NCBI GenBank assembly: GCA_945897085.1
Contig: CAMDEU010000001.1
Coordinates: forward strand, 1-64,000
Direction: 5' to 3'
Source of the DNA: Spirosoma fluviale
Lineage (GTDB): Bacteria; Bacteroidota; Bacteroidia; Cytophagales; Cyclobacteriaceae
Length of the DNA stretch: 64,000 nucleotides
Shown here: piece by piece, positions 32,473 to 39,341 of the stretch
How the letters are laid out: each line of letters starts with the position of its first letter
Numbering within the stretch: position 1 is the first letter of the stretch
The notes under the pieces: generated by a model
The model's database searches: none
Told to the model about the DNA's origin: nothing
The model's input: the letters and a program-made list of their open reading frames with translations, nothing else
Position numbers and translations under genes: made by a program

Positions 32473-33321
32473 CTACTTTCCGAAATCCAAAATCCCACGT
32501 ATGGCGTTGATTTCTTCCATTTCTTTTTTCAACCCCTCGCCATCTTCCGCAGCGATTTTTTCACGGAAGGCACTGAGATTTGCAATATATCCATCCAAAG
32601 AAGCCAAGACATTCTCCTTGTTTTCAATAAAAATGGGTGCCCACATGTCAGGGCTAGATTTGGCAAGGCGAACGGTGGAGGAAAATCCAGACCCCGCCAT
32701 ATCAAATATGTTTTTCTCGTCTTCCATTTTTTGGAGTACGGTTTTTCCCAGCATAAAGGAAGTCAAGTGAGAAAGATGGGATACATAAGCCAAGTGCCGG
32801 TCATGTTCTTCTGGATCCATAAACCGAAGTTTCAAGTTTAGGGCATCAAAGAGGCGATAAGCTTTTTCTTTCAGGTGCAGGTCTGTCTTTTCCATCTCAC
32901 AGAGGATCATCACTTTTCTATCCAAAAGCTCCGCATTTGCTGCCTTAGGACCTGAATATTCAGTTCCCGCGATGGGGTGAGCAGCGAGGTACTGGGATCT
33001 TTTGGGGTGCGATGCTACCAAACTGCAAAGTTTTGACTTGGTAGATCCCAAATCAAATACTAAAGTGTTTGGACCGATTTGATCTAAGGTCTTCAGAAGT
33101 AAATCCCCTAGACTGTTGGCTGGGGTAGCTAAAATCACCAGGTCTGTATCGGTATCGGGTCCGGAAGCCACTTCTGAAATGATGCCCAATGCAAGCGCAT
33201 CTTGGAGGTGCTGGGGGTTAGTATCCTGACCAGTAAGCAGGAGGTCTGGGAATTTTTGTTTGGCAGCGAGGGCAAAGGATCCTCCCAAGAGGCCTAATCC
33301 AATCAAATGTATTTTTTTCAT
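32473..33321 (-). CDS. tyrA: Prephenate dehydrogenase
   Basis: IHLIGLGLLGGSFALAAKQ, HPIAGTEYSGP, and HLAYVSHLSHLTSF motifs; position in the aromatic operon. Confidence 0.92.
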   Translation of the reverse strand: MKKIHLIGLGLLGGSFALAAKQKFPDLLLTGQDTNPQHLQDALALGIISEVASGPDTDTDLVILATPANSLGDLLLKTLDQIGPNTLVFDLGSTKSKLCSLVASHPKRSQYLAAHPIAGTEYSGPKAANAELLDRKVMILCEMEKTDLHLKEKAYRLFDALNLKLRFMDPEEHDRHLAYVSHLSHLTSFMLGKTVLQKMEDEKNIFDMAGSGFSSTVRLAKSSPDMWAPIFIENKENVLASLDGYIANLSAFREKIAAEDGEGLKKEMEEINAIRGILDFGK

Positions 33322-33322
33322 G

Positions 33323-34477
33323 CTAGGGAGTAGGTTTGATGCGGTTGATGGCTTCTAAAATTTTAAATTCTTGGAGGCATAAGGAAATTCGGACAAAGGC
33401 ACTTCCCTCTGTCCCAAAAATTTTCCCTGGCGTAATAAAGATGCTTTTTTCATACAGCAACTGGTCCACCAATTCCTCAGCAGAGGCTCCTTCCGGCATT
33501 TTGCACCAGACAAATAGTCCAGCAGCTTCTCGATCATAGGTCAATCCCAAATGATCAGCAAGAGTCCAAACCAACTTACGGCGGGCAGTATAGATTTCAT
33601 TTTGTCGGTCAAACCAGCCTTTTTCGAGTGAAAGAGCTGCAATTGCACCTTTTTGAAGTCCCAAAAACATGCCCGAATCCATGTTGGATTTGACTTTTAA
33701 TGCAGCATCAACCCATTCCGATTTTCCACAGAGCATGCCCACGCGCCAGCCCGGGATATTGAAGGTTTTACTGAGTGAGTTGAGTTCTAGGCCTACCTCC
33801 TTGCCTCCAGGCAGGGCTAGTAAACTCGTAGGAGAGGGGTTTAAAATATGGCTGTAGGGATTGTCGTGAACAAGCAAAATATCCTGCAGCTGTGCAAAGG
33901 CAATCAGTTCCAAAAGTAGTTCCTCCGAGCCTGCAGCTCCGGTAGGCATGTGTGGGTAATTGATCCACATCATTTTTACCTTGCTCAAATCTAGCTGTTC
34001 GAGTTCCTCCAAATTAGGTCGCCCCTGCCTGCTCAAATCCAAGTTGTAAAAAATAGGGATTGCTCCAAGGAGTTGCGTGACTGCTGCGTAGGTAGGGTAA
34101 CCCGGATTCGGGATCAACACCTGATCTCCCGGATTGAGAAAGGCCATGCTGACTTGAAAAACTCCTTCTTTCGAACCCATCAAAGGGAGAATCTCAGCAT
34201 TGGGATCCAGCTGCACCCCAAATGCATTTTCATAATATGCAGCCATGGCCGCTCGCAAATGAGCGATACCTTGATACCCTTGGTAGCCGTGGGTCTGCTC
34301 ATTGTCAGCCGTAATTTTTAAGGCTTCAATCACGCTACGGTCGGGTGCGAGATCGGGTGAACCAATTCCTAAATTTAGGATTGGCTTTCCTTCTGCGATC
34401 AGGCGATTGACCTCCCGTAGCTTGGTAGAAAAATAGTATTCATCTACCCCTTCAATTCGTGTTGCAAATCCCTTCAT
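33323..34477 (-). CDS. Pyridoxal phosphate aminotransferase class I/II (probable aromatic/prephenate aminotransferase)
   Basis: LNLGIGSPDLAPDRSVIEALK, NPGYPTYAAVTQLLGA, INYPHMPTGA, NSLSKTFNIPGWRVGMLCG; ATGA overlap with pheA. Confidence 0.9.
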   Translation of the reverse strand: MKGFATRIEGVDEYYFSTKLREVNRLIAEGKPILNLGIGSPDLAPDRSVIEALKITADNEQTHGYQGYQGIAHLRAAMAAYYENAFGVQLDPNAEILPLMGSKEGVFQVSMAFLNPGDQVLIPNPGYPTYAAVTQLLGAIPIFYNLDLSRQGRPNLEELEQLDLSKVKMMWINYPHMPTGAAGSEELLLELIAFAQLQDILLVHDNPYSHILNPSPTSLLALPGGKEVGLELNSLSKTFNIPGWRVGMLCGKSEWVDAALKVKSNMDSGMFLGLQKGAIAALSLEKGWFDRQNEIYTARRKLVWTLADHLGLTYDREAAGLFVWCKMPEGASAEELVDQLLYEKSIFITPGKIFGTEGSAFVRISLCLQEFKILEAINRIKPTP

Positions 34478-35292
34478 CCTTTTCTGCTCCTATATTCTCC
34501 AAAAATTTTTAAGTCACCATATCCCGCTTTCATTTGCTCCACTGCTTCTTGGTAGGCCTGCTCGGCTGCAAATTCCGCATCGATAAAAAAGGCATAATCC
34601 CAGGGTTTGTCCATCAAAGGGATGGATTGAATTTTACTCAAATTCAGGTTTTTATCTGCAAGCATGGTCAATAGCTTGGCCAATCCTCCCGCTTCATTGC
34701 GGATGGTAATCTTGAAGGAAACCTTGTTGGGGGCTTCCTTTTGGTTTGTTTTTTCCTTTGTTAGAAATATAAACCGAGTAAAATTATCTTGTACGGTTTG
34801 GATATGTGGCGCTAGAATCTCTAATCCATAGGTAGCAGCCGCGATTTCGCTTGCAATGGCCGCAACTCCCAGTAGTCGCTCCTCCCGGATTCGCTTGGCT
34901 ACCGAAGCGGTGTCTAAGTCATCAATCAGTTGAATTTGAGGATATTGGGAGAGGAAGGTCTTGCACTGCAGCAAAGCCATGGGATGGGAGCGAACCTCGG
35001 AAATATCGGCAATAGTTTGCCCTGGCAATGCCATGAACTGATGGGAAATGGGCAAGTAGTATTCCTCATGAATAAACAGTTCATAGCGATCTATCAGATC
35101 GTAATTCGGTAAAATAGCACCTGCAATGGAGTTTTCTATGGCCATAATGCCCACTTCCGCTGCACCTGAGGCTACCGACTTGGCTACCTCTTCGAAGCTC
35201 ATGAAAGGGAGAACCTGGGCCTCTTTCCCATAATTCAATAGGGCTACTTGGTGGTGGAAGGATCCAGGAATTCCTTGGATAGCTATATTCAT
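34474..35292 (-). CDS. pheA: Prephenate dehydratase
   Basis: MNIAIQGIPGSFHHQVALLNYG, VGIMAIENSIAGAILPNYDLI, DNFTRFIFL, then ACT domain (ISFKIT...AGGLAKLLTMLADKNLNLSKIQSIPL). Confidence 0.93.
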   Translation of the reverse strand: MNIAIQGIPGSFHHQVALLNYGKEAQVLPFMSFEEVAKSVASGAAEVGIMAIENSIAGAILPNYDLIDRYELFIHEEYYLPISHQFMALPGQTIADISEVRSHPMALLQCKTFLSQYPQIQLIDDLDTASVAKRIREERLLGVAAIASEIAAATYGLEILAPHIQTVQDNFTRFIFLTKEKTNQKEAPNKVSFKITIRNEAGGLAKLLTMLADKNLNLSKIQSIPLMDKPWDYAFFIDAEFAAEQAYQEAVEQMKAGYGDLKIFGEYRSRKG

Positions 35293-36542
35293 AGGATGCC
35301 TGGTGTATAAGATTCTTGGGAAATACCTACCAACCCTACCTGCTTCCAAAAGCTTGGGTAGGACTTGTTGACTACTTCTGGGTCTTCAATCCTTACTTTG
35401 GTTTTCGTAACCAATGGCATAAAAGCCATGGCCATACGGTGGTCATCGTAGGTGTGAATTTGCACTAGTCTCGGCATTGTGACCGATGGGATCACCTGAA
35501 AAGTGTTGGTTGCTATTTCTCTCAATTCGGCATTAAACCTTGCCAATTCCTGCTGCAAGGCATGGATTCGATCTGTTTCCTTGATACGCAAACTTTCTAG
35601 CCCTGTAAATACGGTGTTTTGTCCCAAAATAGCACAGGTAACTGCTACTGTCTGAGCCAAATCAGGGCAGTGGCTAAAGTCCCAGCTTTTTAAACCGCTG
35701 ACCATTTTCTTTTCCAAGAGCAATCCTCCTTCTTGAAAAGTACTGCGAATACCCAAATTCTCCATGATCTCCACAATGGCCGCATCTCCTTGGAGACTTT
35801 TTTCTTTCAGCCCTTCTAGGAAAAGGGATCCTTCATCCGCACAGGCCAACAAGCTAAACCAGTAGCTTGCTCCCGACCAATCGCTCTCTACCGCAAAGTG
35901 GGTGGTTTTGTAAGGTTGAGAATTAATTTTAATGGTAGCACCTTCCCAGCTGTACGCAATTCCAAATTGGGCCATGAGCTGCAGGGTCATTTCGACATAG
36001 GTACGGCTACCAACTTTGCCCTCGAGTTCAAGCTCCAACCCGAGAGGAAGTAGGGGAGCGATCATCAAGAGTGCCGAAATGTATTGACTGGAGACATCTC
36101 CGCGAATCCTAATTTGATTGGTGAGTTGTTCAGGCAATCCTTTTATAGCAAGAGGAGGATAGCCCTCGGTACCTAGGTAATGTATCTCAGCTCCTAGGCT
36201 ACGCAAGGCATCCACCAAAATACCGATGGGGCGCTGGCACATCCGTGGAGTGCCAGTCATTACTTTTTGTTGATTGGTGACTGCTACGAAAGCAGTTAAA
36301 AAGCGCATCGTGGTGCCTGCATCTAGCACATCAAAAACAGCCGGATTGGTGTGCAGCAGCCGGATCATCGTTTGGGTATCACGCGCCTCCGCCAGATTCT
36401 TAATCGTATTTTCTCCTTCTGTCAAGGCATCAATTACCAATGCACGGTTGGATTCGCTCTTGGAGGAGGGTAGGGGGATCGAGACCCGGGAGAACTCACT
36501 TTTTTGCGTTAGCTGTAAAAGCTGTATTTTTTGATAATCCAT
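35289..36542 (-). CDS. aroA: 3-phosphoshikimate 1-carboxyvinyltransferase (EPSP synthase)
   Basis: LPSSKSESNRALVIDALTEGENTIKNL, DAGTTMRFLTAFVAV, GDVSSQYISALLM, LRIKETDRIHALQQEL, YDDHRMAMAF. Confidence 0.95.
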   Translation of the reverse strand: MDYQKIQLLQLTQKSEFSRVSIPLPSSKSESNRALVIDALTEGENTIKNLAEARDTQTMIRLLHTNPAVFDVLDAGTTMRFLTAFVAVTNQQKVMTGTPRMCQRPIGILVDALRSLGAEIHYLGTEGYPPLAIKGLPEQLTNQIRIRGDVSSQYISALLMIAPLLPLGLELELEGKVGSRTYVEMTLQLMAQFGIAYSWEGATIKINSQPYKTTHFAVESDWSGASYWFSLLACADEGSLFLEGLKEKSLQGDAAIVEIMENLGIRSTFQEGGLLLEKKMVSGLKSWDFSHCPDLAQTVAVTCAILGQNTVFTGLESLRIKETDRIHALQQELARFNAELREIATNTFQVIPSVTMPRLVQIHTYDDHRMAMAFMPLVTKTKVRIEDPEVVNKSYPSFWKQVGLVGISQESYTPGIL

Positions 36543-37585
36543 TAGGCCAAGTGCAATTGTTGGTAGTAGATGATCGCATGTTTGATCTCTTCAGGGGTCA
36601 CGGGGATGTTGAAGCTGCAGTCCCCAAGGGTAGGCAGTAAGGAAAAAAGTTGCGTATTCCCTTCGTTTTTTTTGTCTTGGGCACAGAGGTCTAAAATCGC
36701 ATCCAGATTCTCGGTGTTCAAGTCCACTTTTCCAAATACCTGGAGCAACTTGTGGCTTAGCTCGTTTAGTTCTTCAAAGCTTAATCCTATTTTTTCAAAA
36801 GATAAAAATCCCTCTGCGATCATCCCGAGTGCAATGGCCTCTCCATGGAGGAGCGGATTGGAACTAGTGAGGTAAAAGGACTCTACCGCATGACCGATGC
36901 TGTGTCCAAAATTGAGAATTTTTCGAAGCCCAGCTTCTTTGGGGTCTACCTCTACCACTGCTTTTTTAATTCCTACGGAATGCCGAATTACCCGAGTCCA
37001 GTCTTGTTGCTCCCAGTCTTTTGAGGGCAAGGCTCTAAAGAAAACCACATCTCGGATTAGTCCATGTTTGATTACCTCTGCATAGCCAGATCGAAGTTCA
37101 CGCTGGGGAAGGGTAGCAAGGAAAGCAGGGGCGATTAGGACTTTTTCAGGAAGTTGAAATACCCCTAGGTGGTTTTTAAACCCCATGAAGTCTATCCCTA
37201 GTTTCCCGCCAACACTCGCATCTACCTGAGAAAGTAGGGTAGTAGGAATAGTCAAAAATGGAATCCCTCTTTTGTAGACACTCGCGCAAAATCCCCCCAT
37301 ATCGCCAATCACTCCACCACCTAAATTGATGACTAGCGCCTGTCTGTCAAGCACTGCTTCTGTCATTGCTGTCCAAATGATGGAGCATGTTTCCAAGGTT
37401 TTGTGCTGCTCCCCTGCAGGTACTGTAATGTGGAGGACATCTGAAAGTAAAGCATCCTGAATCAAGGGCAGGCAATGCTCACGGGTATTCACATCCGTAA
37501 GCACCACCACTTTGGAATAGCTTCGAGCCCGAAGCACCTCTGCGAGTGAATTTTGAATGTCAGTTGTGAAGAGTACGGTTTCCAC
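36542..37585 (-). CDS. aroB: 3-dehydroquinate synthase
   Basis: VINLGGGVIGDMGGFCASVYKRGIPFLTIPTTLLSQVDASVGGKLGID and LNFGHSIGHAVE...HGEAIALGM. Confidence 0.95.
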   Translation of the reverse strand: METVLFTTDIQNSLAEVLRARSYSKVVVLTDVNTREHCLPLIQDALLSDVLHITVPAGEQHKTLETCSIIWTAMTEAVLDRQALVINLGGGVIGDMGGFCASVYKRGIPFLTIPTTLLSQVDASVGGKLGIDFMGFKNHLGVFQLPEKVLIAPAFLATLPQRELRSGYAEVIKHGLIRDVVFFRALPSKDWEQQDWTRVIRHSVGIKKAVVEVDPKEAGLRKILNFGHSIGHAVESFYLTSSNPLLHGEAIALGMIAEGFLSFEKIGLSFEELNELSHKLLQVFGKVDLNTENLDAILDLCAQDKKNEGNTQLFSLLPTLGDCSFNIPVTPEEIKHAIIYYQQLHLA

Positions 37586-37656: not shown

Positions 37657-38754
37657 TTATTTTTGGATTGGCTCCACTTCCCGAAGTTGTCTTTCTTGAC
37701 GCTTTACAGACTCCTCATGGATGCAATAGAGCAATTCTTTCATGAATTTCTCACTCAGTTGCTTTTTGACTCCCTTTTCAGTTCTGGAGTCCATCACATC
37801 TTTCCATCGGTCTGATTGAAATACAGTTAAGTTATGCTCACGTTTGTGAGCTCCAATCTGATCAATTACAGAAAATCGTTCTTGTAAAATATCCAAAAGC
37901 TGATCGTCTAAATGGTCTACTGCGCGCCGTAGATCAAATAATTTTTCATCAGGCTTCATGTTTTCCAAGGACTGCTTGAATTCGATCGAATCAATCATTT
38001 CCTTCAGTCGACGTGGAGTTACTTGCTGCTTAGCGTCTGACCAAGCTTTGTCAGGATCGTGGTGGGTTTCAATCATCAAACCATCCAAGCCAAAGTTCAT
38101 GGCGCTTTGGGCAACCTCTAGCAAGCCGTCTCTACGTCCTACAATGTGTGAAGGGTCGTTGATTACTTCCATCCCTGTCCACTCCCGCTTCAGATGAATG
38201 GGCATAGACCAGTTGGGTTTGTTGCGGTAACGCTTGTCGTAAGCATCTGAAAATCCACGGTGAATCGCTGCTAGCTTGGTGATGCCTACGGCATACATGC
38301 GTTCCAGAGCCCCCATCCAAAGCTCCAAATCTGGGTTCATAGGATTTTTGACCATCACCGGAATATCTACTCCACGAAGAGCCTCTGCAATTTCTTGCAC
38401 TGCAAATGGATTAACCGTAGTACGCGCCCCAATCCAAAGGATGTCTATTTTGTGCTTAAGCGCCATCTCCACATGAGCGGAATTACCTACTTCAACAGTA
38501 ACAGGGATATGGAGCTCATCGCGAACAATCTCCATCCACTTCAATCCTTCCTCTCCAACTCCTTCAAAAGAACCTGGTCTTGTCCGTGGCTTCCAGATCC
38601 CTGCTCGAAATACCTGAGGGATGAATTGATTTTCCTTCATCTCGGAACAGATTTGTGCAATCTGTTCGGGAGTTTCTGCAGAGCAGGGGCCTCCGATGAT
38701 CATTGGGTTGCTGAGACCAAGTCCCCAGTCTTTAATTTGCTTGTGCGGCTTCAT
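37657..38754 (-). CDS. Bifunctional DAHP synthase / chorismate mutase
   Basis: MIIGGPCSAETPEQIAQICSEM...RAGIWKPRTRPGSFEGVGEEGLKWM (DAHP synthase) plus C-terminal LFDLRRAVDHLDDQLLDILQERFSVIDQIGAHKREHNL (AroQ chorismate mutase). Start set at MKPHKQ (38754) because the longer ORF spans a terminator. Confidence 0.94.
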   Translation of the reverse strand: MKPHKQIKDWGLGLSNPMIIGGPCSAETPEQIAQICSEMKENQFIPQVFRAGIWKPRTRPGSFEGVGEEGLKWMEIVRDELHIPVTVEVGNSAHVEMALKHKIDILWIGARTTVNPFAVQEIAEALRGVDIPVMVKNPMNPDLELWMGALERMYAVGITKLAAIHRGFSDAYDKRYRNKPNWSMPIHLKREWTGMEVINDPSHIVGRRDGLLEVAQSAMNFGLDGLMIETHHDPDKAWSDAKQQVTPRRLKEMIDSIEFKQSLENMKPDEKLFDLRRAVDHLDDQLLDILQERFSVIDQIGAHKREHNLTVFQSDRWKDVMDSRTEKGVKKQLSEKFMKELLYCIHEESVKRQERQLREVEPIQK

Positions 38755-38771: not shown

Positions 38772-38803
38772 AAAAAAAGCCCAACTCTTTCGAATCGGGC
38801 TTT
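38772..38803 (-). terminator. Intrinsic terminator (attenuator) in the leader of the aromatic operon
   Basis: Minus strand AAAGCCCGATTC-GAAA-GAGTTGGGCTTTTTTT: 12-bp stem (2 G-U), GAAA tetraloop, U-tract, ending 18 nt before the start codon. Confidence 0.85.
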
Positions 38804-38819
38804 CTGTTGTTATGTGTTT

Positions 38820-38915
38820 TTAGTTTTTGGCTAGACAATACACAGCTCCGATTCGATTCTTCTGTCGAAAGTAAAAGTAAAAGAAGCTAAAATAGATCGC
38901 GGCTGTGATGAACAT
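38820..38915 (-). CDS. Phe/Tyr-rich attenuator leader peptide (MFITAAIYFSFFYFYFRQKNRIGAVYCLAKN)
   Basis: ATG at 38915, TAA at 38822-38820; 8 of residues 8-16 are Phe/Tyr (YFSFFYFYF); immediately upstream of the terminator and the DAHP synthase gene. Too short for the ORF track. Confidence 0.8.
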   Translation of the reverse strand: MFITAAIYFSFFYFYFRQKNRIGAVYCLAKN

Positions 38916-38946
38916 GTCGTAAATGTAACCGGCTATTTTTTAAAAG

Positions 38947-38954
38947 CAAAATTA
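38947..38954 (-). promoter_or_regulatory. Candidate -7 box (TAATTTTG) for the leader transcript
   Basis: Plus-strand CAAAATTA, i.e. TAATTTTG on the minus strand, ~31 nt before the leader ATG; no clear TTG at the expected -33 spacing. Confidence 0.35.
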
Positions 38955-39089
38955 TTTTTAGCAATGAAAATTATCATTTCTTCAATGGATCAGTGTTAAC
39001 TTTTACAATATTTCAATTTACAGATATAAATTCACGTTAAGCAGAATATTATTTTTTGAATTAGCCATAATTAAAAATAATAGTTTCAA

Positions 39090-39341
39090 TATATTATTTT
39101 TAATAGTTAAGGATATTGGCTTGGTGCTAGTTCTGGATTTCCATACACCCGCTCGGATAAGCGATATACCATTATCAGCCAACTGGCTTACTGTAGATTC
39201 GAGCTGCTCCGGAGTTTCTACACTGCAGGGCCCTGTAATGATAAAAGGGGTAGCTGATGTGGAATTTTCTGAGAATGGGAAAAGTTGTTTTATACCTGGG
39301 TTCATGCCTGAAAAACCACTAGGAAGCATCCAAAGTTTCAT
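39090..39341 (-). pseudogene. Truncated DAHP synthase N-terminal fragment
   Basis: MKLWMLPSGFSGMNPG...TPFIITGPCSVETPEQLESTVSQLADNGISLIRAGVWKSRT matches DAHP synthase N-terminal motifs (GPCSAE...RAGIWKPRT), then runs into unrelated AT-rich sequence. Confidence 0.75.

Follow-up and report, generated by a model that had tools for sequence, protein, structure and literature searches.

Vitreschak (2004) and Lopatovskaya (2010) reportedly list attenuators in Bacteroidetes/Chlorobi. According to a survey from 2010, leader-peptide systems were known only in Proteobacteria and Actinobacteria before its own report from Firmicutes (PMC2965389). The proteobacterial attenuators (pheA, trp, his and ilv leaders; PMC1183508 for the model) have a leader ORF with control codons, a terminator and an antiterminator that exclude one another, and a 1:2 protector, all placed just before the operon. 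The S. meliloti trpL attenuator, whose transcript begins at the leader AUG, is a precedent for a leaderless leader-peptide system, but it is alphaproteobacterial, concerns Trp and has another promoter and sequence (PMC7298713). The main text of a study of Flavobacterium psychrophilum reports clues that amino-acid operons are attenuated through leader peptides, and describes a structured 5' element before pheA that is conserved in Flavobacteriaceae and has no Rfam match (PMC9723704); for this element it offers neither a leader sequence nor a codon run or an alternative pairing, and it does not extend the element to Cyclobacteriaceae or to DAHP-synthase-first operons. The Bacteroid-trp RNA (RF01692, PMC2864571) is likewise a cis-regulatory leader of Bacteroidota, but for Trp and not for Phe/Tyr. 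Its covariance model has no match in the window (the whole stretch of DNA analysed here, 64,000 nucleotides long) or in the genome to which the window belongs. A match in an Algoriphagus-genus genome (locus L288, positions ~1524-1660) contains a KYWWWHSY leader, MKTIANKYWWWHSYSFQKEV, followed by a terminator, and is, judging by its sequence, a Trp attenuator of the same layout as the leader studied here. The presence of Bacteroid-trp with a leader peptide in the same genus makes leader-peptide attenuation already a theme in Bacteroidota.

The locus under study is the leader of a six-gene aro/phe/tyr operon whose genes all run in one direction (Table 1). From aroB onward adjacent genes overlap or almost touch, and no terminator as strong as that of the leader was found between the operon genes. 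The leader is very probably a ribosome-mediated transcription attenuator that senses the charging of tRNA-Phe as well as tRNA-Tyr and has the whole common-pathway-plus-Phe/Tyr operon under its control. An earlier note on this DNA had proposed a Phe/Tyr attenuator over an aromatic operon, and this reading is now supported by conservation, by replacement of the stems and by the content of the six genes. The leader has in common with the proteobacterial attenuators all the parts listed above. It differs from them in that Phe and Tyr would be sensed together over a whole common-pathway operon, in a probably leaderless mRNA in the Cyclobacteriaceae lineage, in having no Shine-Dalgarno sequence, and in unrelated stem and leader sequences.

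Table 1. Positions of the operon genes and leader features in the window.
Feature	Position	Strand	Basis or remark
DAHP synthase-chorismate mutase, first operon gene	37657..38751	-	Pfam DAHP_synth_1 + CM_2; NCBIfam
aroB, 3-dehydroquinate synthase	36542..37585	-	TIGR01357 above cut-off
aroA, EPSP synthase	35289..36542	-	TIGR01356 above cut-off
pheA, prephenate dehydratase (PDT + ACT)	34474..35298	-	Pfam PDT
class I/II aminotransferase, probably aromatic	33323..34477	-	Pfam Aminotran_1_2; substrate inferred from context
tyrA, prephenate dehydrogenase	32473..33321	-	NF006307 above cut-off
TTTG of probable -33 promoter element, 3' half of TAATTTTG box	38947..38950	-	19-nt spacing to -7 box, 70/76
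probable -7 box TACATTTA, consensus TAnnTTTG, 4 nt before leader AUG	38920..38927	-	71/76
predicted transcription start zone, leaderless or nearly so	38915..38918	-	position of the -7 box
leader peptide ORF	38820..38915	-	31 codons, Phe/Tyr at codons 8-16
control codons 8-16 (Y F S F F Y F Y F)	38868..38894	-	bases 1+2 nearly fixed; base 3 mostly C/T synonymous
segment 1 (CACAGCCGCGAT)	38896..38907	-	partner of segment 2
segment 2 (TCGAATCGGAGCTGTG)	38841..38856	-	pairs with segment 1 (protector) or segment 3 (antiterminator)
segments 3+4, intrinsic terminator AAAGCCCGATTC-GAAA-GAGTTGGGCTTT	38776..38803	-	segment 3 = 38798-38790; U-run to 38772

The leader ORF encodes the peptide MFITAAIYFSFFYFYFRQKNRIGAVYCLAKN and has eight Phe/Tyr codons in its run of nine (Y8 F9 F11 F12 Y13 F14 Y15 F16), corresponding to the two end products of the operon. 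Among short ATG ORFs (9-50 codons) on either strand of the 64-kb window it is the only one with at least 6 F/Y in 9 codons, the runners-up having 5. Dinucleotide shuffles of the 360-nt region of the leader reach 8 F/Y in 0/2000 cases and at least 6 in 14/2000. An alignment of 51 leaders separates two halves of the ORF: in the Phe/Tyr codons the first two bases are kept and third-base variation is mostly synonymous, and nearly every base is fixed in the codons CGA-ATC-GGA of the motif RIG, which belong to the antiterminator strand. Synonymous drift in the run together with the fixed CGA-ATC-GGA shows that selection acts on the codons in the first half of the ORF and on the RNA in the second.

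This double selection bears on the alternative that survives best, although it is very improbable, namely that the product of the leader has a function of its own, either as a small membrane peptide or as an arrest peptide sensing something besides Phe/Tyr supply. The peptide is hydrophobic, its tail RIGA.YCL is kept across Cyclobacteriaceae leaders, and the trpL peptide has a role in trans in S. meliloti (PMC7298713). Class-wide, however, only the richness in F/Y is kept while order, length and tail change freely; within the family the third bases of RIG are fixed, as RNA pairing predicts, and the controlled genes make Phe and Tyr.

The leader region folds better than its shuffles (z -3.06), and the best fold consists of the terminator and a helix of CACAGC..CGAT with ATCG..GCTGTG (38907-38896 with 38852-38841) that brackets the Phe/Tyr run. 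The bracketing helix, absent from the earlier note, is the classical segment 1:2 protector. The terminator separates the leader ORF from the first gene, and 20 nt remain from the end of its U-run to the ATG of DAHP synthase (38751). The antiterminator, exclusive with it, would form between TCGAATCGG (38856-38848) and CCGATTCGA (38798-38790), which are exactly complementary. Re-reading of the locus thus bears out the 31-codon ORF with its eight Phe/Tyr codons, the intrinsic terminator behind it and the exact match of a leader segment to the terminator 5' arm, all first pointed out in that note, and corrects its distance of 18 nt to the DAHP synthase start. Predicted energies across all 51 aligned leaders are about -8 to -16 kcal/mol for 1:2, -14 to -19 for 2:3 and -16 to -20 for 3:4.

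The promoter is assigned differently from before. Downstream of the box TAATTTTG (38954-38947), which had been taken for the -7-like element, comes another conserved one, TACATTTA (38927-38920), at a distance of 19 nt. Among 76 distinct upstream regions of Cyclobacteriaceae, 71 have TAnnTTT(G/A) at a distance of exactly 4 nt from the AUG, and 70 of the same number of distinct orthologous regions have TTTG spaced 19 nt from the -7 box, these counts being based on a leader ATG picked by script, which in three of the exceptions is a wrong, later in-frame ATG. TAnnTTTG and TTTG are given as the -7 and -33 consensus of the primary sigma factor of Bacteroidota (PMC7366714, PMC9723704). Given the conserved TTTG-N19-TAnnTTT(G/A) ending 4 nt before the AUG, we dropped TAATTTTG as -7 box in favor of the proximal one; it more likely is part of the -33 region and carries the TTTG of that element. 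Since the -7 box ends 4 nt before the AUG, transcription should start 0-3 nt before it, and the leader mRNA of Cyclobacteriaceae is probably leaderless or nearly so, as predicted from the position of the box. Such short 5' untranslated regions are rare in the phylum, with 5.5% of leaderless transcripts indicated for F. psychrophilum and ~3.7% shorter than 10 nt for B. thetaiotaomicron (PMC7366714, PMC9723704). Leaders from beyond Cyclobacteriaceae mostly have the box, if one is found at all, 14-33 nt from the AUG, which confines the leaderless state to one lineage.

We favor the following sequence of events. RNA polymerase would start no more than a few bases from the leader AUG, the first ribosome would probably load on the leaderless 5' end, and coupling of transcription and translation on the leader is assumed for Bacteroidota. 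When either Phe or Tyr is short, the ribosome should stall at codons 8-9 and cover segment 1; segment 2 could then pair with segment 3 to build the antiterminator, and the operon would be read. When both amino acids are plentiful, the ribosome would run through, covering segment 2 while it is in codons 18-26; after its passage the 1:2 helix would occupy segment 2, and with segment 2 occupied 3:4 would form and end transcription ahead of DAHP synthase.

The effect of ribosome position was computed in a masked-folding model with an assumed footprint of 15 nt on each side of the ribosome. When codons 8-9 occupy the A site, 1:2 is blocked and 2:3 forms once segment 3 is out, in agreement with the original idea that a stall on the Phe/Tyr run frees a segment for the antiterminator. 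A ribosome at codons 18-26 blocks 2:3. The companion idea, that a ribosome at the stop codon masks the antiterminator segment, is abandoned because segment 2 is left uncovered there under the 15-nt footprint. Masking from the stop codon is the layout of trp-type leaders and is not required of every attenuator; leaders of the L164 type have the stop codon within or beside segment 2. In the present leader the stop codon is too far from segment 2, so that this segment must be held by the 1:2 helix or by a ribosome that has not yet left codons 18-26. In the model 2:3 beats 1:2 at equilibrium once segment 3 is out, and termination in the fed state must therefore be kinetic, with 1:2 forming first.

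A protein search gave 80 orthologous loci, mostly from Algoriphagus and also from Belliella, Echinicola, Cecembia, Aquiflexum, Mongoliitalea, Rhodonellum and others. The leader with its Phe/Tyr run, the RIG motif and the terminator are present in 79/79 loci with readable upstream DNA; the locus left outside this count, L062, has just 198 nt upstream, which carry an insert. Small related inserts separate the attenuator terminator from the DAHP synthase start in L062 (1-198), L082 (3390-3500) and L028 (near 1455); they have ATGAAA near both ends and CATGCGAGATTCCATGTGACC in common. In the family alignment, changes on both sides of helices 1:2 and 3:4, counted jointly, amount to 20 cells versus 7.7 in shuffles, none of 500 shuffles reaching 20. 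At column pair 18/82 of the 1:2 helix, AU is changed to GC in 11 sequences of the 51-leader alignment. Helix 2:3 is almost invariant in Cyclobacteriaceae and has no covariation of its own, as expected for a strand that must pair with two partners.

The same alignment yields no aptamer-like conserved domain outside the leader ORF and the stems. This speaks against a riboswitch, a T-box or a protein-dependent terminator next to an incidental ORF, a reading less probable still than that of a functional peptide. Other RNA devices do control Phe and Tyr in other phyla, but searches of the window and 12 related loci gave no cis-regulatory Rfam match (leader, riboswitch or T-box) at gathering score, and up to E = 10 only low-scoring unrelated families.

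Upstream of the leader, positions 39018-39341 of the minus strand hold the degenerate 5' part of what was a second DAHP synthase. A match to this paralogue occupies that place in 25/80 relatives (24 near-complete, 1 partial), which identifies the copy of the window as a decaying remnant. Inspection by eye showed no leaders ahead of the second DAHP synthase. Its presence in some relatives and its remnant here could mean that the terminator belongs to the upstream gene and does not regulate the operon; this has hardly any probability, as most loci lack the paralogue and still keep leader, promoter and terminator, and the F/Y leader with its own promoter sits between the two genes.

The distribution beyond the family was assessed in pheA upstream regions of genomes across class Bacteroidia, sampled without reference to the leader in order to avoid circularity. 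The run, defined as at least 6 F/Y in 9 codons within the last 360 nt before pheA, is found in 31/46 loci, versus 0.57% of shuffles and 0/46 antisense strands, a descriptive count because the loci are not phylogenetically independent. Alignment of orthologous leaders, proposed earlier as a check, therefore finds the Phe/Tyr run kept throughout the family and in these loci of the class. In several of the 15/46 loci without the run a same-strand gene ends close upstream, so that pheA is probably internal there. Three further census loci have Trp-containing runs (..TYFWFYP..). In loci L230, L233 and L249 the run is mixed (TYFWFYP) and the stem is another one, CGGGAGG pairing with CCTCCCG; in this group Trp codons may contribute, to judge from the run. 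The leader is placed at the head of the operon whichever gene comes first, DAHP synthase, aminotransferase or pheA, and the Flavobacterium pheA element (PMC9723704), as far as its published main text describes it, is probably of the same family as the pheA-first leaders. The 31 census-type leaders add up to 142 F and 111 Y, and 26 of them have at least 3 F and at least 2 Y. Similar usage of the two amino acids and these minimum numbers in 26/31 point to a dual sensor.

Support for helix 2:3 is drawn, at the level of sequence, from these loci more distant than Cyclobacteriaceae. Complementarity between the leader 3' end and the terminator 5' arm exceeds that of shuffles in 50/58 leaders at p<0.05 and in 42/58 at p<0.01, counts that are again descriptive for want of phylogenetic independence. 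Stems have been replaced yet remain complementary: GCCGGGACT with AGTCCCGGC, GAAGCGGGA with TCCCGCTTC, and CGGATCGGGTTT with AAGCCTGGTTCG (wobbles). The earlier expectation of covariation in both stems thus holds for 1:2 and 3:4 within the family, while for 2:3, almost invariant there, its place is taken by the replaced stems. By shuffling, 1:2 is significant in just 12/58 leaders, and its signal is weak outside Cyclobacteriaceae. The weaker matches of the covariance model R1 led to relatives in other genera and families with different, still complementary stems; because of this replacement R1 recovers the family and misses distant relatives, and the pheA census took its place. Many of its weak class-wide matches resemble background terminators and several, at 37-49 bits, are real. 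No Phe/Tyr leader with a terminator was found at the order-level DAHP synthase loci L117-L130, in part because the operon may begin with a gene other than DAHP synthase there. In L124, from another Cytophagales family, a Tyr/Trp-rich short ORF, MYPTIAKYYYCNKSLGYYWWRWQAYGYLLTARFSR, is located upstream of DAHP synthase (~1740-1847), and a clear terminator was not seen.

The G051 group (loci L258-L287, L241 and L228), a genus of the same order with GC-rich genomes, has a Phe/Tyr leader upstream of pheA in 30/30 loci fetched, so that AT-richness is not the explanation. The region is AT-rich and TTT and TAT codons are common in it, but chance, by which T-rich intergenic DNA would happen to encode F/Y codons ahead of an ordinary terminator, has a negligible probability and is refuted already by conservation, besides the 8/9 run absent from 2000 shuffles, the census rate of 67% against the shuffles and antisense strands, the mostly synonymous variation in the run and the same architecture in this genus.

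The attenuators described here are of a known kind, but in the searchable literature we found no account of the family itself, of how widely it occurs, or of its dual specificity, replaced stems, leaderless start and tandem arrangement. We consider it likely that they form a so far undescribed family of Bacteroidota, spread through the class, in which leader peptides sense both Phe and Tyr; its members would be leaderless in Cyclobacteriaceae, would stand in tandem in one genus or more, and would work in bacteria that manage without Shine-Dalgarno initiation. The novelty put forward in the earlier note is thereby narrowed: leader-peptide attenuation clues, the pheA element in the main text of PMC9723704 and the Trp leader of RF01692 were known from Bacteroidota, and what stands is a family absent from Rfam. 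It provides a sequence-level account of how a whole bacterial class probably controls aromatic amino acid synthesis. If true, a class-wide attenuator family implies close coupling of transcription and translation in Bacteroidota, and offers a natural test of this coupling in bacteria whose ribosomes do not rely on Shine-Dalgarno sequences.

Leaders in the GC-rich genus are often duplicated. Two serial leader ORFs, each with its own terminator, are present in 17/30 loci, and two more loci have two leader ORFs and one detected terminator. To our knowledge, tandem leader-peptide attenuators were not known before. The leaderless and tandem versions would indicate that the attenuator layout is flexible. 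L223, a locus from another family, appears to have two leaders too.
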